Source: an uncultured bacterium (GTDB lineage: Bacteria; CAIJMQ01). From it: 5,390 nt of DNA. The notes under the pieces are model-generated. The model was not told the origin of the DNA and ran no database searches. It saw nothing but the letters and a program-made list of their open reading frames with translations. Position numbers and translations under genes: made by a program. The DNA lies in the NCBI GenBank assembly GCA_903821905.1, contig CAIJMQ010000024.1, forward strand, positions 1 through 5,390, read 5' to 3'. Shown piece after piece: positions 1 through 5,390 of this stretch (positions are counted from its first letter, which is position 1; the number at the start of each line of letters is the position of its first letter).

Positions 1-150
1 GGTGTTTCCGATGTATCGGGTGGTGAAAGTTGTGACGTGTGCCCAACAAGATGCTTCTTTCATTTTTGTAATCTGTGCTATGTTTGTTCTGTAGCATCAT
101 GTACTTATTCTTGTAACGCTTCATGTTCGACATGTACTGACACTTGGTAG
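1..150 (+). CDS. Cys-rich RiPP precursor peptide, 3' part only (truncated by window start)
   Basis: Frame 1 is open from the first base to a TAG at 148-150 and gives 49 residues. Residues 4-8 read DVSGG, a double-glycine type leader/core junction, and the same five residues occur in the peptide encoded at 4927-5109. After it comes a core of about 41 residues with ten cysteines (visible residues 11, 14, 18, 23, 26, 29, 34, 38, 42, 45), rich in Ser, Thr and aromatics and ending in Trp. The start codon and most of the leader lie upstream of the window. The next gene encodes a radical SAM/SPASM maturase, the usual partner of Cys-rich precursors in sactipeptide and ranthipeptide loci. I infer a RiPP precursor whose cysteines could become thioether donors. 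A small metal-binding Cys-rich protein is the alternative, but the shared DVSGG and the maturase next door favour a precursor. Confidence 0.75.
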   Translation, partial: GVSDVSGGESCDVCPTRCFFHFCNLCYVCSVASCTYSCNASCSTCTDTW

Positions 151-176
151 GGTTTTGTGGGCTATTCGTAAATAAA

Positions 177-213
177 TTAGCTAAGGCTAAATGTTGTAGT
201 TTTTTTATTTTTT
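177..213 (+). terminator. Weak hairpin plus T-tract after the Cys-rich peptide gene
   Basis: TTAGC (177-181) and GCTAA (186-190) pair around a four-base loop. A T-rich stretch follows from 200 to 213, with seven consecutive T. The stem is only 5 bp and the T run begins nine bases after it, so this is at best a weak terminator or attenuator that would lower read-through from the peptide gene into the maturase gene. It is the only structure I see in the 118-base gap. Confidence 0.25.
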
Positions 214-268
214 CTTAAAGTAAATTGAAATATTAAGCAATAACTATTACGTTATAAGGATTTAGAAA

Positions 269-1777
269 GTGTCAGAAAAAGATATACTTCTAAAAGAAGA
301 AACTATTTTAGGTCTTAACGAGCATATTCGTATACGTAGGGAAAAATCTAGTATTATTGTTTATTGGGCAGAACATAATGCTGGAGTTAATGAAAGAGGT
401 GAAACAATAGATACCTCGGGAAATTATTGCTTTACTTCCTCAGTTGCTATGATGCTTGCTCTTTTTGATGGGAAAAGGTCTCTTAAAGAAGTATTTCAAA
501 TGGTCCAATTTATTTGGGAAGAACCTTCCCTAACTTTTGTTGATTTGTGTAAAGAACTGGAAAAATTTATTCTAAATGTTCCGCCACTTAATATAAAAAT
601 ACCGGTGCTTATTGAAGTTACCGAGGATAAAAAACAAAAATTCATACATTATGACCCTGAAGACTTTGTTATTAAAGGGGATAAATTTCTTCCCCAAGAA
701 GCCACAGTTTTACAATTCCCCATTACTACTGTTCTTATGCCTACGCTCGATTGCGTTACTGATTGTGTGTATTGCTATATGGGACGTCATCTCGCTCCTA
801 AATATTCTTTCCTTCCTTTTTCAAGATGGAAGGAGTTGCTTGATGAGATGGGAGAGTATCAGCTATCTGGTTTAGGTTTTGCTGGGGGCGACCCAATGTG
901 CTATGAGCATACTATAGATATGTTAGAGATAGCCTCAACTTTCAATCCACCAGTTCATATCTCTGTAGCTACTAAATCTTACATCTCGCAGGAGGTGGCA
1001 CGTCGTCTCTCGCATATTTCCGATTTAGAGTTTCAAATAAGTCTTGATAGCACAGTTCCAAAGATTGCAGATGCTATGACTCGAAAAAAAGGATATTGTA
1101 AGCAGGCAATTGAATCCATTAAAAATCTTATGGCAGCAGGAGTAAATCTTGCGGTTAAAGCAGTTGTGACACCGCTTAATATCCAATCTATGCCTCAGAC
1201 AATATTGGATTTACACAATCTTGGAGTTAAGACCATCAGGGCAACTATTTATGTCCGGTCAGTGTGGCATCATAAGGATGAGTTGTTTAATAAAATGAAT
1301 GAGTGGGAAGAATATGGGAAACAGGTGGAAGAAATTGAAGCAAAGCATGGTTTTAAAATTATAATGCAAGGGGGTGCTCCTGCTCCAGAGATTAATGAAT
1401 CGCAAGGCCAAAATCAGAAGTCTTGGAATGAACGTAATGAATGCACTGTAGGTAAGAAACAAGTTGTTATCTTGCCTGATGGCAGTTTGATTGGATGTGA
1501 GCAGCTACCGCAGACACCTGAATGTTTCCTTGGTAATGTTGCTAAAGATTCTCTGTATAATGTTTGGAACTCCGAATCTTTTAAAACTAAGTCGTACGAT
1601 ATCCCTATGGAGAAATATAAAGGCACTGTTTGTTATAATTGCAAAGAATTTGAGGGATGCCACTCAGCTAACGGCAAGGGATACTGTATGCGTGAGTCTT
1701 ATAGAATATTTGGGACTATATATGCACCATGCCCAGGTTGCCCTTATAATGATAAAAAGCCCCCAAGAATGCAGTAA
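269..1777 (+). CDS. Radical SAM/SPASM peptide maturase with N-terminal PqqD-like recognition domain
   Basis: Predicted RiPP maturase of 502 residues. Residues about 12-105 look like a PqqD/RRE-type winged-helix domain, with the family-like pattern of a Phe-Asp-Gly followed by a helix (FDGKRSLKEVF, 66-76); this would bind the precursor leader. The radical SAM core follows, with CX3CX2C at C162, C166 and C169 for the [4Fe-4S] cluster that cleaves S-adenosylmethionine, then a GGDP motif (206-209) in the place of GGEP. The C-terminal part has the SPASM pattern: C392 and C410 with an intervening PDG, then C455-X2-C458-X5-C464, C473, and a final CPGC at 488-491, enough ligands for two auxiliary Fe-S clusters. 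Start: GTG at 269, supported by AAGGA at 256-260 with 8 bases of spacing. Flanking peptide genes with cysteine cores suggest thioether or other C-centred crosslinks. The exact chemistry cannot be read from the sequence. An anaerobic sulfatase maturase is possible but no sulfatase is visible. Confidence 0.88.
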   Translation: MSEKDILLKEETILGLNEHIRIRREKSSIIVYWAEHNAGVNERGETIDTSGNYCFTSSVAMMLALFDGKRSLKEVFQMVQFIWEEPSLTFVDLCKELEKFILNVPPLNIKIPVLIEVTEDKKQKFIHYDPEDFVIKGDKFLPQEATVLQFPITTVLMPTLDCVTDCVYCYMGRHLAPKYSFLPFSRWKELLDEMGEYQLSGLGFAGGDPMCYEHTIDMLEIASTFNPPVHISVATKSYISQEVARRLSHISDLEFQISLDSTVPKIADAMTRKKGYCKQAIESIKNLMAAGVNLAVKAVVTPLNIQSMPQTILDLHNLGVKTIRATIYVRSVWHHKDELFNKMNEWEEYGKQVEEIEAKHGFKIIMQGGAPAPEINESQGQNQKSWNERNECTVGKKQVVILPDGSLIGCEQLPQTPECFLGNVAKDSLYNVWNSESFKTKSYDIPMEKYKGTVCYNCKEFEGCHSANGKGYCMRESYRIFGTIYAPCPGCPYNDKKPPRMQ

Positions 1778-1799
1778 AAACATCTAAAAAGGGGTTTTT
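1754..1799 (+). terminator. Possible terminator overlapping the maturase stop codon
   Basis: AAAAAGCCCC (1754-1763) can pair with GGGGTTTTT (1791-1799) with one bulged G, and the transcript continues T-rich. The loop is long (about 26 bases) and contains the TAA stop. A smaller alternative is AAAAA-GGGG-TTTTT at 1786-1799. The rest of the 139-base gap to the next gene holds a short palindrome, ATCTAGAT (1859-1866), and a weak promoter-like TTGGTA (1887-1892) and TAAAAT (1899-1904) pair. Confidence 0.35.
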
Positions 1800-1916
1800 C
1801 TGTTTAACCTTTTGGAGTTATGTATAAGTCATTCCCATCCCTCCTTGAGTTATCAAATATCTAGATTAATAGAACTTCCAACAACATTGGTATAGGTGTA
1901 AAATAGTGGAGTATAG

Positions 1917-2864
1917 ATGAAAATCAATAAGAGACACCCAAAGATAGATAAAAAAGAAAAATTTTTAGTTCAGGATATTCTTGAAATTGAACAAGAAGCT
2001 TCAAGCAGGGGTTTAATCCATTCTTTTGATATTAATTGCCTTTTGGGAGTTTTTTACCAGATAAGGGATAAAACAAAAGAATATCTTGAGGGTAAAGAAT
2101 GTCCTATTGCCAAAGTAAAAGCAATACACAAAGTAATTGTGGAATTATTTGAGTATGCTGGTAATCCTTCAATCCTTATGTGTGAAGGGTTAGCCGGTAG
2201 AAAATTAGATTGTGATTTGAGTTGTGGAATATATCTTTCTATTGCCCGTGAATTAAAGCTTCCTCTTTTCGGTGTTCTTCTACCTTCTCATACTGTTCTT
2301 GCGTGGGGAATGCCCAAACCTCTTTTCTATTTTAATGCTATGCTTGGTAATATTACTAAAGAGGGGGCTTCTTCTAAACCTATTCCTGATAAAGAGTTTA
2401 TGTCTACTTACTATAATACAATAGGAGTAAGATTTGCTGAAATAGAAAAATATCAAGATGCTATCTGCTTTTTTGATAAAGCATTAAAATGTTATTCTCT
2501 TGATGCGCGTCTTTATTATCATAAGGGGGTTTCTCTTGCTCACTTGGGATATTATAATCAGGCAGTAAATTGGTGTAAGAAGGCAATTGATCTGGACTCT
2601 TCTGACTGGAAAGCCTATTTTAATATGGGAGTTTGTTTGGCATTATCGGAGAAACATGAAGAAGCGGTTAATTACTACGACCGGGCAGGGAAACTCTATT
2701 CTAAGGACTACCGCATATATTACCATAGAGCTGATGCTTTACTACGCTTGGGAAAACTAGATTTAGCAATAAAGGATTATAAAAAAGCTCTACGTATCTG
2801 TCCCGGTGATGAGAGTCTTCGTGAAGACTATGAAACAGCTCTTCGCTATTCTAAGGAACCCTGA
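1917..2864 (+). CDS. SirB1/transglutaminase-like domain fused to four TPR repeats
   Basis: A 315-residue, apparently cytoplasmic protein with no signal peptide. Residues about 15-160 resemble the SirB1/transglutaminase-like fold: C99 opens a helix (CDLSCGIYLSIARELKLP), then LLPSH places H125 26 residues later, and N140 in FYFN could be the third catalytic residue where Asp is more usual. From memory of the family, the Cys-to-Pro and Pro-to-His distances fit SirB1-type domains. Residues about 165-298 form four TPR units (near 165-198, 199-232, 233-266, 267-298), each with the Gly/Ala-aromatic-Ala pattern. Start: ATG at 1917, with GGAG at 1908-1911 at a short 5-base spacing. It lies 139 bases after the maturase gene in the same direction. 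Lasso-peptide leader peptidases also use a transglutaminase-like fold, so a role in leader cleavage is a reasonable inference, but SirB1-like TPR proteins also occur in unrelated contexts. Confidence 0.72.
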   Translation: MKINKRHPKIDKKEKFLVQDILEIEQEASSRGLIHSFDINCLLGVFYQIRDKTKEYLEGKECPIAKVKAIHKVIVELFEYAGNPSILMCEGLAGRKLDCDLSCGIYLSIARELKLPLFGVLLPSHTVLAWGMPKPLFYFNAMLGNITKEGASSKPIPDKEFMSTYYNTIGVRFAEIEKYQDAICFFDKALKCYSLDARLYYHKGVSLAHLGYYNQAVNWCKKAIDLDSSDWKAYFNMGVCLALSEKHEEAVNYYDRAGKLYSKDYRIYYHRADALLRLGKLDLAIKDYKKALRICPGDESLREDYETALRYSKEP

Positions 2865-2874
2865 TTTTCAATTG

Positions 2875-2928
2875 ATATAGGTTATTTTACAGATGTATAA
2901 AAATAATCAGAGCTTTTGTAACCTATAT
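2875..2928. repeat. Perfect 10-bp inverted repeat upstream of the glucanase gene
   Basis: ATATAGGTTA (2875-2884) is matched exactly by its reverse complement TAACCTATAT (2919-2928), with 34 bases between. A second pair, CTGATT (2861-2866, overlapping the TPR-gene stop) and AATCAG (2905-2910), interleaves with it, so a transcript could form the two stems in a pseudoknot-like order. No T-tract follows directly. It could be an operator for the glucanase gene or a 3' structure of the TPR gene. Confidence 0.4.
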
Positions 2929-2942
2929 AATCGGTTTATCCC

Positions 2943-2961
2943 TTGACGAATGGAGTATAAT
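2943..2961 (+). promoter_or_regulatory. Promoter-like element TTGACG-N7-TATAAT before the glucanase gene
   Basis: A consensus-quality TATAAT (2956-2961) sits 14 bases before the ATG, and TTGACG (2943-2948) precedes it by only 7 bases. This is too close for a classical -35/-10 pair (16-18). The 20-base block 2942-2961 matches 15 of 20 positions of 4879-4898 in front of the second precursor, so it is probably functional. If TATAAT is the -10 box, transcription would begin only a few bases before the start codon. Confidence 0.45.
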
Positions 2962-2975
2962 AAGATTAAAACAGA

Positions 2976-4841
2976 ATGAAAAGAATAAATTCTAAATCTT
3001 TCATTTTAACGAATATATTTAGTGTAGTCATATTTTTAAATATTTTTTATCTTGATACCTACTCTCAAGAAAAATCTGCAAGCAATTTCAACCCCATAAG
3101 TTCTCAGGAAGCAGTCAAGAATATGTCTCCAGGCTGGAATTTGGCTAATACATTGGAAGCAATACCAACAGAAGGTTCCTGGAACAACCCTCCCGCAGAA
3201 GAATACATTTTTGATGATATAAAAAAAGCAGGGTTTAGAAGTGTCAGAATCCCCGTAACATGGTATACACATTTTGGCCCCGCTCCTGACTATAAAGTTG
3301 ACCCTAAATGGATGGATAGAGTTGAACAGGTTGTTGACTGGGCATTAAAAAGAGATTTGTATGTGATGATTGATGTTCATTTCGATTCTGAGTGGGTATC
3401 AAGAATGGTAATTGATCCCGCAACGGGTAATTATGTAAACAATTATGGTAATTCCATAGTCAAGCTTGAAAAACTCTGGGGGCAAATAGCAGAAAGGTTT
3501 AAATGGAAAAATGAGAAGTTGCTACTGGAAGTTTTGAACGAACCTATTGATGGAAATGAACCTATTAAAGGAGATAAGGTAGAAGACAAATTCGGTAAAC
3601 CTAAAAGCCCTAACAATCCTGAAGCAAGGTACGACCTGACACAAGAACAGGTGAACGACATGAATAGACGCGTTGTAAGTCTCATACGAAAATCAGGTGG
3701 GTACAATGATAAACGACTTGTTGTGATCCCGGGGATAGCAAGCAATGTAAACCCTGTTGAACAGATATTGAAATCGTTTAAAGCGCCGGATGATAAATAT
3801 ATTATTTTCACGTCTCACTATTATTTGCCCTGGGAGTTTACGAATAACCAATGTGGAAGAACTAGTTGGGGTACATTTGAAGAAAAGCAGGCAGTCGAGC
3901 AAATGGCTAAACAATTTTATGAAAAATTTATTAAAAATGGTTTACCTATAATTGTGGGAGAATGGGGCACTTTAGTTAAAAATGACAAATTATCAAGATG
4001 GTATTACCACGATTATCTTGCTAAGACTGGATATAAATATGGAATAGCTTGTCTATTATGGGACAACGGCTTAGAACTGTGTCAATACTATGATAGAAAG
4101 AATAGAGTGTGGCGAGACGAGATATTAAAAGATGTAACTGTAAATGCTGGGAAAGGCATACCAAACTCATTTATATTTCCAGTAGACAACTATTTCAAGG
4201 TAAATACCGATGTAACAGAGGATTTAACTGTTAAACTTGAGTTAAATGGTAATGAACTACTCAATATCTATAATGCAGAGAAGAAATTAGTTAGAGGAAC
4301 GGATTATGTTGTTGATACTCAAAACCTGACAGTAACAATCAAGAAAGATTACCTTGCCAAATTACTTGCTCATCCTGATGTAGCCGGAGAATCCGAAAAA
4401 CTTGGTACTATCGCAACTCTAAAATTTGATTTTTCAAAAGGTATAGATATGCCGCTCAATATTATCCGATATGATTTACCGAAATTTCCAGAAGGCACTA
4501 TAGTAATTGACAAGAGTAAAACCCAAGGTAAGATTCAATCAGATATGGTGATTCCCGTATCTTTTAACGGCACTAAATTAGATAAAATCAGTTTGGTTGA
4601 TAAAGAAAATAAAAAACCCATAATGAACTCAGGGACACCTTATCTTTGGATGTCTGATCGTGAAGATGACAGTTTTGATTATACTGATACTGGGATTATT
4701 CTAAAGAAAGGAATATTAAACTCATTAAAAACTGATTCTTTATTTACCTTTGAATTTTTGCCCAGAGATATCAAAGTTGAAATGGAGGCACTTTTAGCTT
4801 CTCCTTATATCATGTTCACAGTTAATAAAGATACAAATTAA
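2976..4841 (+). CDS. Secreted GH5 (probably GH5_4) endo-beta-glucanase with X2 Ig-like module
   Basis: A 621-residue secreted glycoside hydrolase. Residues 1-30 form a signal peptide (KR, then a hydrophobic run; cleavage probably near the YSQ at 29-31). The GH5 barrel spans about 45-390: GWNLANTLEA (53-62), R91 in VRIPV, H135 in DVHFD, the general acid E189 in LNEP, H281-Y282 in SHYYLPWEFT, the nucleophile E329 in GEWG, and W362 in LLWDNG. All expected catalytic residues are present, and the PWEFT and WGT sequences resemble GH5_4, whose members cut cellulose, xyloglucan or mixed-linkage glucan. Residues about 397-500 match the X2/Ig-like module (LELNGNELLNIYN, then GTDYVV). The last ~110 residues are a beta-rich domain that may be a CBM46, an order known from Bacillus GH5_4 enzymes. 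The only possible start is ATG 2976, because an in-frame TAA lies at 2967. There is no Shine-Dalgarno site at a useful distance. The last nine residues and the stop codon lie inside the 48-bp repeat. Confidence 0.92.
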   Translation: MKRINSKSFILTNIFSVVIFLNIFYLDTYSQEKSASNFNPISSQEAVKNMSPGWNLANTLEAIPTEGSWNNPPAEEYIFDDIKKAGFRSVRIPVTWYTHFGPAPDYKVDPKWMDRVEQVVDWALKRDLYVMIDVHFDSEWVSRMVIDPATGNYVNNYGNSIVKLEKLWGQIAERFKWKNEKLLLEVLNEPIDGNEPIKGDKVEDKFGKPKSPNNPEARYDLTQEQVNDMNRRVVSLIRKSGGYNDKRLVVIPGIASNVNPVEQILKSFKAPDDKYIIFTSHYYLPWEFTNNQCGRTSWGTFEEKQAVEQMAKQFYEKFIKNGLPIIVGEWGTLVKNDKLSRWYYHDYLAKTGYKYGIACLLWDNGLELCQYYDRKNRVWRDEILKDVTVNAGKGIPNSFIFPVDNYFKVNTDVTEDLTVKLELNGNELLNIYNAEKKLVRGTDYVVDTQNLTVTIKKDYLAKLLAHPDVAGESEKLGTIATLKFDFSKGIDMPLNIIRYDLPKFPEGTIVIDKSKTQGKIQSDMVIPVSFNGTKLDKISLVDKENKKPIMNSGTPYLWMSDREDDSFDYTDTGIILKKGILNSLKTDSLFTFEFLPRDIKVEMEALLASPYIMFTVNKDTN

Positions 4842-4859
4842 GTAATTAATAAAACATAA
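4812..4859 (+). repeat. 48-bp direct repeat, copy 1 (end of glucanase gene plus 3' flank)
   Basis: This block, starting at the ATG codon of Met613 of the glucanase and running through its stop codon into the intergenic region, is identical base for base to 5343-5390. The two copies begin 531 bases apart and bracket the second precursor gene. Confidence 0.97.
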
Positions 4860-4879
4860 AATCATTACTATACACACAC

Positions 4880-4898
4880 TTAACAAGAGTAGTATAAT
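4880..4898 (+). promoter_or_regulatory. Promoter-like element TTAACA-N7-TATAAT before the Pro-rich precursor gene
   Basis: TATAAT at 4893-4898 is preceded by TTAACA at 4880-4885 with the same 7-base gap as the element before the glucanase gene. The element ends 28 bases before the ATG, which leaves room for the strong ribosome binding site. The precursor therefore probably has its own promoter rather than depending on read-through from the glucanase gene. Confidence 0.45.
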
Positions 4899-4910
4899 CA
4901 AACTAGGGAA

Positions 4911-4920
4911 AAGGAGGTGA
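4911..4920 (+). promoter_or_regulatory. Perfect Shine-Dalgarno site of the Pro-rich precursor
   Basis: AAGGAGGTGA is the full complement of the usual 16S rRNA 3' tail, with 9 bases between AGGAGG and the ATG at 4927. It is much stronger than the sites before the other genes in the window, as expected for a highly translated precursor peptide, and it fixes the start codon. Confidence 0.9.
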
Positions 4921-4926
4921 AAAAGA

Positions 4927-5109
4927 ATGAATATAGAAGAACTGAGAAAGTTGGTAAAAAAGAATGGATTAACCCTACATATCAAAGGAACTTATGACGT
5001 GTCTGGCGGTGGCTGCACTGCAAATCCTCCACCACCTCCTCCACCACCTCCTCCACAATGTGGCACTACCGGTTTCGCCGCTTGTACGGGCGACGCCCAG
5101 GCGTTCTGA
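4927..5109 (+). CDS. RiPP precursor peptide with DVSGG junction and Cys-Pro10-Cys core
   Basis: A 60-residue peptide. Residues 1-28 look like a leader: a charged amphipathic helix (MNIEELRKLVKKNGL), then a short segment ending in YDVSGG (23-28). DVSGG is shared with the Cys-rich peptide at the window start. Cleavage after Gly28 would release a 32-residue core with cysteines at 30, 45 and 53, ten consecutive prolines at 34-43, and a Gly/Ala/Thr-rich tail ending in Phe. The radical SAM/SPASM enzyme encoded at 269-1777 is the obvious candidate modifier. A polyproline helix would hold Cys30 and Cys45 apart, so any crosslinks probably involve Cys45 and Cys53 with the Gly/Thr/Ala tail, or form around the rigid rod. 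The core half is visibly richer in G+C than its surroundings, partly because of Pro, Gly and Ala codons. I do not recognise a named family. A spurious ORF is unlikely given the ribosome binding site and shared motif. Confidence 0.82.
   Translation: MNIEELRKLVKKNGLTLHIKGTYDVSGGGCTANPPPPPPPPPPQCGTTGFAACTGDAQAF
5026..5055 (+). repeat. 12-bp tandem microrepeat encoding ten prolines
   Basis: The ten proline codons use only CCT and CCA in the order CCT CCA CCA CCT, repeated 2.5 times. The tract length is a multiple of three per codon, so slippage gain or loss of whole 12-base units would add or remove four prolines without breaking the frame. Confidence 0.9.
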
Positions 5110-5164
5110 TGGAGTAGGCTTTGATCTATTGGGAGGCGAGGATATAATTACTAAAATATCTCCT

Positions 5165-5243
5165 ATTGATAGATTGATTGTTCTGTGTCACTTTTTTATC
5201 TTTAGTTAAGGATAATAGAAGTGAGAATAATCAGTCTATCAAT
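5165..5243 (+). ncRNA. 79-nt long hairpin downstream of the precursor gene
   Basis: Three stacked stems can form: 5165-5183 with 5225-5243 (19 pairs, two G:U), 5188-5193 with 5219-5224 (6 pairs), and 5196-5203 with 5208-5215 (8 pairs, one G:U) closed by the loop AGTT. That gives 33 pairs with only a four-base bulge and a small internal loop. All three wobble pairs are G:U on the + strand and would be A:C mismatches on the - strand, which points to an RNA made in the same direction as the precursor. No long T-tract follows, so it is not a classical terminator. It may be a 3' stabilising or processing structure, or a small palindromic mobile element. Confidence 0.6.
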
Positions 5244-5276
5244 CTGTTTTGCATAGTTAAATAAGAGCTGTTTTAA

Positions 5277-5372
5277 AAAGCTGTTTATCTTTTTTGGGAG
5301 AGAAAAGATACTATGGAGATACTGCCAATTTTTTCTTACTTTATGTTCACAGTTAATAAAGATACAAATTAA
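5277..5372 (+). pseudogene. Decayed copy of the glucanase 3' end
   Basis: The frame from 5277 to the TAA at 5370-5372 ends in the same nine residues as the glucanase. Upstream of the exact repeat, the 14 codons 5304-5345 align without gaps to glucanase residues 600-613, with 7 of 14 residues identical (K, M, E, L, Y and M among them), and about 60% of bases match over the 48 bases before the repeat. An in-frame TAA at 5274 closes the frame, so no larger gene is intact here. An ATG at 5313 with GGGAG at 5296-5300 would allow a 19-residue peptide, which I consider less likely than a remnant. An 8-bp inverted repeat (5286-5293 and 5303-5310) lies within it. Confidence 0.45.
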
Positions 5373-5390
5373 GTAATTAATAAAACATAA
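5343..5390 (+). repeat. 48-bp direct repeat, copy 2 (reaches the window end)
   Basis: Identical to 4812-4859 up to the last base of the window. The next base of copy 1 is A, so the repeat may continue outside. Its coincidence with the window end suggests a contig that stops at a repeat, or a tandem array whose next unit would begin here. Confidence 0.95.

Follow-up and report, generated by a model that had tools for sequence, protein, structure and literature searches.

The locus and its two precursor genes

The window analysed here is an entire MAG contig of 5,390 bp, from a source genome (G000) of 1.3 Mb that is 84% complete; all features described below lie on its forward strand. At the left edge we observed an ORF (1-150), open at the contig edge, that encodes the last 49 residues of a Cys-rich precursor with ten Cys (peptide 1), while the gene start and most of the leader lie beyond that edge. 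It is followed by a radical SAM/SPASM peptide maturase of 502 aa (269-1777), a 315-aa Transglut_core2 protein with TPRs (1917-2864), a GH5 cellulase with CBM_X2 domains (2976-4841; Pfam Cellulase, 5e-55) and a second precursor of 60 aa (peptide 2, 4927-5109), recognised as an ORF with leader homology. Peptide 2 consists of the leader MNIEELRKLVKKNGLTLHIKGTYDVSGG and the core GCTANP(10)QCGTTGFAACTGDAQAF, in which 2.7 copies of a perfect 12-nt tandem repeat encode the Pro10 run (5026-5055).

A promoter-like site and a strong ribosome-binding site (AAAGGAGGTGA) precede peptide 2 (4869-4920; TATAAT ends at 4898). A similar -10/Shine-Dalgarno layout was seen upstream of the precursors in G001, a same-family genome carrying a syntenic locus on L016, and in the relative G002. 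Downstream of peptide 2 is a long near-perfect hairpin (5163-5246; fold z-score -4.25), present as a single copy in the genome and matched in stability by none of 200 shuffles; it is possibly a terminator or transcript stabiliser. The contig ends 281 bp past the peptide 2 gene, within an exact 48-bp repeat (5343-5390) of 4812-4859, and, judging by this repeat, the promoter/gene unit of peptide 2 may recur beyond the right edge. The cellulase was rejected as a partner of the system, as it is missing from the G001 locus and from the other three family genomes. It has paralogues elsewhere in the source genome, and is probably a bystander.

As the preliminary description had stated, both short ORFs carry DVSGG at the leader/core junction, at 10-24 in peptide 1 (GAT GTA TCG GGT GGT) and at 4996-5010 in peptide 2 (GAC GTG TCT GGC GGT), and the codons indeed differ at the third base in four of the five positions. 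Its argument that selection, not recent copying, holds the motif is sound as a codon inference but weak when taken alone, and the orthologue comparison given below is far stronger. The degenerate pattern GAYGTNWSNGGNGG occurred three times in the 1.3-Mb genome (the two DVSGG junctions, and one site reading through a stop codon), and a reversed control pattern occurred twice. With about two chance sites per genome, it is unlikely that two DVSGG sites would fall within one 5.4-kb contig by chance (about 3e-5, our own estimate).

Further precursors were sought in the source genome and none was found; a leader match at C1:8925 was discarded as chance, since it falls within a long unrelated ORF, reads in a different frame and has a stop. 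JDVT-CTERM and virilizer matches to peptide 2 were low-complexity and below cut-off, and a lipoprotein reading of SGGGC was ruled out, as no hydrophobic signal lies ahead of it.

Leaders and cores compared with the syntenic locus

In G001 the orthologous maturase is immediately preceded by an orthologous Cys-rich precursor (L016:84-281). This intact peptide agrees with the truncated peptide 1 at the junction (GVxxVSGxExC) and in the Cys frame. We observed that its leader was identical to that of the Pro10 peptide at 18 of 27 positions (single-comparison E 1e-11) and scored 86, whereas none of 5000 shuffles exceeded 41. Ten synonymous changes were counted overall, and residues 6-15 showed no non-synonymous change. 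This alignment shows that the Pro10 peptide and the Cys-rich type, represented by the orthologue, have homologous leaders; peptide 1, whose own leader is missing, would take its place in the shared-leader claim through the orthologue. The resemblance of the leaders thus extends beyond DVSGG, and Cys-rich peptides are also found beside distant maturases. The earlier proposal of one maturation system for divergent substrates gains support from this homology, and we infer that the enzyme acts on the Pro10 peptide. DVSGG itself stood only in part as the junction motif: VSG[GS] is retained, but the strict form is not kept in G001, which has VSGS.

Strong matches to the leader profile were confined to these loci among 386 genomes. 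G001 has one precursor only, of the Cys-rich type, and G002 holds a frameshifted relic of the leader near two CcpM-like maturases. No orthologue of peptide 2 was found in any genome searched, and so there is no evidence for long-term selection on its core.

The two cores had been described as having no resemblance. This was overstated, since a Cys register is common to both; otherwise they are divergent (ten Cys versus Pro10). Allowing a one-residue indel, Cys30, Cys45, Cys53 and Thr54 of peptide 2 correspond to Cys31, Cys46, Cys54 and Thr55 in both Cys-rich peptides; each of the three Cys in the Pro10 peptide is thereby aligned with a Cys conserved in both. Shuffled tails matched the Cys/Thr register of peptide 2 equally well in 0.13% of cases. 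The cores of peptide 1 and its orthologue are identical at 9 of 35 positions, five of these being Cys. The aligned sequences indicate that the cores are hypervariable apart from the Cys frame. With homologous leaders and divergent cores, the peptides belong among the RiPPs that combine a conserved leader with hypervariable cores.

The maturase, its neighbours and its distant relatives

Both Pfam matches of the 269-1777 enzyme (Radical_SAM, 1e-15; SPASM, 3e-9) were above cut-offs, placing it in the radical SAM/SPASM superfamily. The radical SAM CxxxCxxC motif (752-775; Cys162/166/169) is conserved in four homologues, in which Cys392, 410, 455, 458, 464, 473 and 491 of the SPASM region (1442-1741) are invariant. 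The G001 orthologue is 66% identical, and a profile search (E <= 1e-30) detected no second maturase of this type in G000.

Residues 7-84 (287-520) form an N-terminal fusion that hhalign related to PqqD-like RiPP recognition elements (RRE). Five homologues aligned with true PqqD at E 6e-4 over 64 columns, and none of 60 column shuffles was as good; the match is significant by E value, yet its probability is only 28%. The G001 orthologue matched TIGR03859 PqqD with E 0.0024, below curated cut-offs. An AlphaFold model of low confidence (mean pLDDT 39), used for secondary-structure order only, gave the order beta-beta-beta-alpha-alpha-alpha for this domain. These results place the system, remotely, among the PqqD-type RRE-dependent RiPPs, with the PqqD-like domain fused to the maturase.

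No named NCBIfam family was matched at cut-off. The nearest models were WgkB, ScmF, ScmE, MftC and NirJ2 (bits/cut-off: WgkB 70/650, the best; ScmF 69/400; ScmE 66/400; MftC 65/265; PapB further down at 50/340), and the CcpM and SCIFF models were absent among the best 25 listed. Among solved structures, only remote matches to SkfB (2e-6) and cytosylglucuronate decarboxylase were seen.

The Transglut_core2 match of the 1917-2864 protein (1.6e-5) is above cut-off for the N-terminal part. Cys99 and His125 are conserved, while the third residue is Asn in the window and Asp in the G001 orthologue, which is 65% identical and occupies the same locus position. Full-length copies were found in G000 and G001 only, and a second one in G000 was not detected by profile search (E <= 1e-5). 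This protein is a candidate leader peptidase or maturation partner. Its relation to the lasso C96-type B2 protease is one of functional analogy only (PMC10885120). The locus does not qualify as a lasso peptide cluster, the window protein being Transglut_core2 plus TPR, and neither the window nor L016 (the latter by predicted ORFs) showed an asparagine-synthetase-like gene among its ORFs.

In G001 the order of genes is Cys-rich precursor, radical SAM/SPASM enzyme, TPR/transglutaminase-like protein and then an ABC exporter. The full domains of this exporter are ABC_membrane and ABC_tran only, with no C39 peptidase domain. The window contig has no exporter, and the locus does not fit the double-glycine/C39-peptidase (PCAT) type; an orthologue of the G001 exporter was not found in the 84% complete G000. 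The G002 exporter, which occurs with CcpM-like maturases, is a 71%-identical copy of that in G001.

Distant maturase homologues (23-29% identical, full length in the rhizobial records) were observed on plasmids of Rhizobium sp. CB3171 (pCB3171_2), Mesorhizobium sp. L-2-11 (MesoLjLa4), Aminobacter sp. SS-2016 and Paenibacillus peoriae HS311. As at the window, short Cys-rich peptides lie directly upstream of the enzyme, an arrangement seen in G001 and three plasmid lineages. The Rhizobium and Mesorhizobium peptides, about 0.1 kb upstream, carry IQEMQTLIKKKGLKxD, with a related L-I-K-K-x-G-L leader (LIKKKGL in rhizobia); its similarity was reached in 0-1 of 5000 shuffles for Rhizobium and 1-7 for Mesorhizobium. 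On the Paenibacillus plasmid two Cys-rich precursors stand in tandem, and their leaders show only weak similarity (reached by 33 to 821 of 5000 shuffles). Unlike the window, these plasmid loci lack both the VSGG junction and a Pro-run core, and the rhizobial loci have a further radical SAM gene, a relative of TIGR04463. A maturase scan of the genome collection gave one 19%-identical Bacillota match, and nothing was found in viral contigs scanned with maturase and leader. Weaker maturase relatives in the 386 genomes were excluded from the family because the six inspected had no such leader in their listed ORFs.

A probable leader-guided system and its alternatives

Taken together, the locus probably represents one leader-guided radical SAM RiPP system with hypervariable cores, a single RRE-fused maturase and at least two precursors. 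That the leader and the system are common to both peptides is very likely, and processing of both by the 269-1777 enzyme is likely. Thioether chemistry we consider evenly balanced, and a protease role for the TPR protein is a tentative suggestion. The conserved leader block ELRKLVKKNGLxL would bind the fused RRE, bringing any attached core to the enzyme, which would then use the conserved Cys of the 31/46/54 frame to form Cys-based (thioether-type) cross-links. The Cys-rich core is compatible with the thioether cross-links of sactipeptides and ranthipeptides (Cys to alpha, beta or gamma carbons). In peptide 2 the ten prolines may act as a stiff rod separating Cys30 from Cys45 and Cys53, giving a two-ended product. 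Cleavage of the leader would follow VSG[GS]; as the exporter linked to the G001 locus lacks a C39 peptidase domain, the transglutaminase-like TPR protein might be the protease. The product would then be exported via an MsbA-type ABC transporter.

It is conceivable, though unlikely, that the peptide 2 leader is common by descent while peptide 2 is modified by another enzyme, whose gene lies past the right end of the contig, and the 269-1777 enzyme serves peptide 1 only. The gene for peptide 2 is 3.1 kb further along, with an unrelated cellulase in between, has its own promoter-like site and is followed by only 281 bp of contig, and in G002 an exporter of the G001 type is linked with two CcpM-like maturases, other Cys-rich peptides and a leader relic; leaders and maturases therefore do reshuffle. 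However, an unrelated enzyme would not need a leader block that is nearly unchanged, and the G000 profile searches gave neither a second such maturase nor a second full-length TPR partner. A paralogue that is decaying or has newly expanded is rather improbable; here slippage of the 12-nt proline repeat would have overrun the core of a duplicated precursor, leaving it without a dedicated product. The perfect tandem repeat, the restriction of peptide 2 to the source genome and the relic leader within the family (G002) would fit this, but the ORF and leader are intact, a strong ribosome-binding site, promoter-like site and stable hairpin flank the gene, and all three Cys keep the ancestral register.

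The two peptides might also be halves of a product acting jointly and not independent substrates, as precedents with two precursors and one maturation system exist in thuricin CD (PMC12093266) and roseocin (PMC10027976); this we consider quite improbable, as only the Cys-rich peptide is present in G001 and the two genes, each with its own promoter, are widely spaced. A coincidental DVSGG, with peptide 2 being no RiPP precursor, is highly improbable: VSGG-type motifs are short and DVSGG is not kept in G001, but the motif is rare in the genome and the entire 27-residue leader matches the peptide 1 orthologue, provided that L016:84-281 is indeed that orthologue.

The preferred reading of one leader-guided system resembles the prochlorosin/SyncA and roseocin lanthipeptides, in which one promiscuous maturase (ProcM, SyncM, RosM) acts on a conserved leader with divergent cores (PMC9872173, PMC10027976). 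The window differs from them in its radical SAM/SPASM enzyme with a fused PqqD-like domain in place of LanM, in having two precursors, and in a leader without a Nif11 match in library scans. Thuricin CD is a two-component sactipeptide with two Cys-containing precursors (TrnA/TrnB) and a radical SAM system, but it requires a complex of two such enzymes (TrnC/TrnD), whereas the window contig has one (PMC12093266). CcpM (TIGR04068), PapB ranthipeptide (NF047865) and SCIFF (TIGR03974) systems likewise pair Cys-rich cores with SPASM radical SAM enzymes; the window maturase is far below every cut-off. PqqE/PqqD and MftC/MftB also combine a radical SAM/SPASM enzyme with a PqqD-type leader-binding domain, but in the window this domain is N-terminally fused, and the precursor is Cys-rich and not PqqA or MftA.

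The logic of one leader, one enzyme and many cores is familiar mainly from lanthipeptides, and we know of no counterpart of the Pro10 core. Speculatively, the uncultured lineage, the rhizobial plasmids and Paenibacillus might share an undescribed RiPP class, with an RRE-fused enzyme tolerating both ten-Cys and Cys-flanked Pro10-rod cores, a rigid two-ended cross-linked product, and leader removal by the transglutaminase-like TPR protease. If true, a radical SAM enzyme that carries its own recognition domain and accepts a Pro10 core would directly test how little of the core such enzymes need to recognise, and the leader tag could be used for engineering stiff Cys-linked peptides. As the maturase falls in no named NCBIfam family at cut-off, the loci point to an unannotated RiPP group in at least three distant bacterial lineages.

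Precursors, leaders and the junction motif

The window is the whole of contig C24 of G000, a 1.3-Mb MAG that is 84% complete. Its forward strand opens with the last part of a Cys-rich peptide (1-150, an ORF), followed by a radical SAM/SPASM protein of 502 aa (269-1777, from the ORF and domain matches) and a 315-aa protein with Transglut_core2 and TPR domains (1917-2864). Next come a GH5 cellulase of the secreted type that carries CBM_X2 domains (2976-4841) and, at 4927-5109, a peptide of 60 aa containing a Pro10 stretch. We observed DVSGG in both short ORFs, at 10-24 and 4996-5010 (forward strand), the codons differing at the third base in four of five positions, as the preliminary description had reported. 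A degenerate DVSGG pattern run over all of G000 returned these two sites and one crossing a stop, and nothing more.

The peptide-1 leader lies beyond the contig edge, and the leaders were compared through the orthologue in G001, a genome of the same family. Its 10.2-kb contig L016 carries, in order, a precursor (84-281), a maturase 66% identical to that of the window (557-2056), a Transglut/TPR protein (2211-3179) and an ABC exporter (3283-5154). The G001 precursor (MDVEKLRKLVKKNGLRLDKKGVQSVSGSENC...) has seven Cys, and the peptide 1 junction region agrees with it (GVxxVSGxExC). Its leader shares 18 of 27 residues with that of the Pro10 peptide (E 1e-11; score 86, where the best of 5000 shuffles reached 41), so that the likeness extends past DVSGG. 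Within leader block L6-L15, all codon changes between these two peptides were synonymous. Because the G001 precursor matches both the peptide 1 junction and the Pro10 leader, the two window peptides appear to form one leader family. The proposal of DVSGG as a shared junction held for both window peptides; judged by the G001 precursor, however, the motif is VSG[GS], with DVSGG not strict.

A 48-bp exact direct repeat (4812-4859 and 5343-5390) holds the cellulase gene end, and the contig ends within its second copy. The 39 bp preceding each copy also agree (23/39, as in 0.025% of random pairs), which suggests a tandem duplication; a further precursor copy perhaps lies just past the contig end. 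Downstream of peptide 2, at 5163-5246, there is a long near-perfect hairpin (z -4.25), present in a single copy in G000.

The Cys frame and the proline rod

The two cores had been described as bearing no resemblance, but three Cys and one Thr of the Pro10 peptide are in register with the Cys-rich peptides. With a one-residue shift, its three Cys land on 31, 46 and 54, positions that both Cys-rich peptides also fill with Cys, and all three peptides have Thr right behind the last conserved Cys. Such a Cys register has a chance of 0.5-1.4% (two Cys placed randomly), and the same four identities arose in 0.13% of shuffled tails. Judged by this register, the Pro10 core resembles a Cys-frame core whose stretch from conserved Cys 1 to conserved Cys 2 has given way to a proline rod. 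Orthologous Cys-rich cores (peptide 1 and G001) have 9/35 positions in common, five being Cys (hypergeometric P 0.012 for the Cys overlap), so the core appears to vary freely around the Cys frame, even among orthologues. The rod is encoded by a perfect 12-nt tandem repeat, and its length may therefore change by slippage. A ten-proline stretch is stiff and, by standard geometry, about 3 nm long. In peptide 2, seen in one genome only, the rod would separate Cys30 from the other two Cys, and thioether chemistry would act on Cys.

We infer that one maturase serves peptides 1 and 2; the chemistry, protease and function of the locus are likewise putative. SyncM (up to 79 substrates; PMC9872173) and roseocin (PMC10027976) follow the same logic, with a single enzyme and a single leader serving divergent cores. 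Thuricin CD, a radical SAM case with two precursors, needs two enzymes (PMC12093266). A literature search for radical SAM RiPPs combined with polyproline gave no relevant match among the papers covered. In genome G142, locus L064 is possibly an unrelated proline-rich RiPP locus: two short Pro-rich ORFs on the minus strand (6614-6724 and 6890-6988; MAMWCNKG...GFPPPPPPDPDGDAILYE and MGMAMWCNKG...PKPWPPYDPDGGDYLLAEE) lie upstream of a radical SAM gene, which is followed by two ORFs resembling ATP-grasp proteins (putative).

The maturase and its distant homologues

Among 386 genomes, the maturase was found at 1e-30 in G000 and G001 only, and it scored below every NCBIfam cut-off (best WgkB, 70 bits; cut-off 650). 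In plasmid records, distant homologues occurred in rhizobial lineages (Rhizobium sp. CB3171, Mesorhizobium sp. L-2-11 and Aminobacter sp. SS-2016; aligned over residues 3-501 or 17-501, about 23%) and in Paenibacillus peoriae HS311 (29%; gene in two ORFs). All four full-length enzymes have the Cys triad of the radical SAM core together with seven Cys in the SPASM region.

Short peptides were also present at the homologous loci, with a Cys-rich precursor beside the maturase in G001 and in the plasmid loci examined. In the two rhizobial loci examined, a 77-78-aa peptide (leader block IQEMQTLIKKKGLKxD, core GCDSCTVCPCMICW) lies about 0.1 kb upstream of the maturase homologue, while two tandem Cys-rich peptides precede the Paenibacillus gene. 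By shuffle test, the leader block of the rhizobial precursors resembles that of the window family (equalled by 0-7 of 5000 shuffles), and that of the Paenibacillus ones does so only weakly. On the Paenibacillus plasmid (NZ_CP011513.1; L052:8424-10310), the tandem precursors are unannotated and the radical SAM gene is annotated as two ORFs (frameshift or sequencing error). The rhizobial plasmid RiPP loci (L053:6656-9863 and L054:6673-9908) have two radical SAM enzymes and the conserved core; their annotation goes no further than 'hypothetical protein' and radical SAM proteins.

A profile of the maturase N-terminal domain (four full-length enzymes aligned with the Paenibacillus one) matched true PqqD with E 6e-4 over 64 columns, and 0/60 column-shuffled profiles did equally well. 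The G001 N-terminus by itself also matched the PqqD model (E 0.0024). The domain is thus likely PqqD-like, a remote assignment since the hhalign probability is 28%.

Leader removal, export and exchange of parts

The linked G001 exporter has ABC_membrane and ABC_tran matches and no C39 peptidase domain match, so cleavage at VSG[GS] would require another protease. The Transglut_core2 protein keeps Cys99 and His125 (possible third residue Asn or Asp), and in the seven genomes of the class full-length Transglut_core2/TPR copies were found only beside this maturase. As transglutaminase-like (C96) proteases take off lasso leaders (PMC10885120), it is, by analogy, a possible candidate leader peptidase.

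Among related REARRANGEMENT, G002 has an exporter 71% identical to that of G001, in a RiPP locus on its contig C14 (L032:7407-13900). Here it accompanies two other, very Cys-rich peptides (9907-10140, CSCACACSCSCSCDCSG; and 10192-10419), two CcpM-like radical SAM maturases in tandem (scores below cut-off) and a window-type leader broken by a frameshift (a KKNGL relic at about 13670). The precursor of G001 and the first of the two in G002 have the same segment upstream, TCCAATATGTTATGGACTCTTACA, which forms the tail of a transposase-like ORF. As read from these sequences, the family has evidently exchanged precursors and maturases around a common exporter and promoter. The transposase-tail sequence is identical at L016:1-24 and L032 about 9825-9850, upstream of the precursor promoters, in two genomes whose RiPP clusters otherwise differ.
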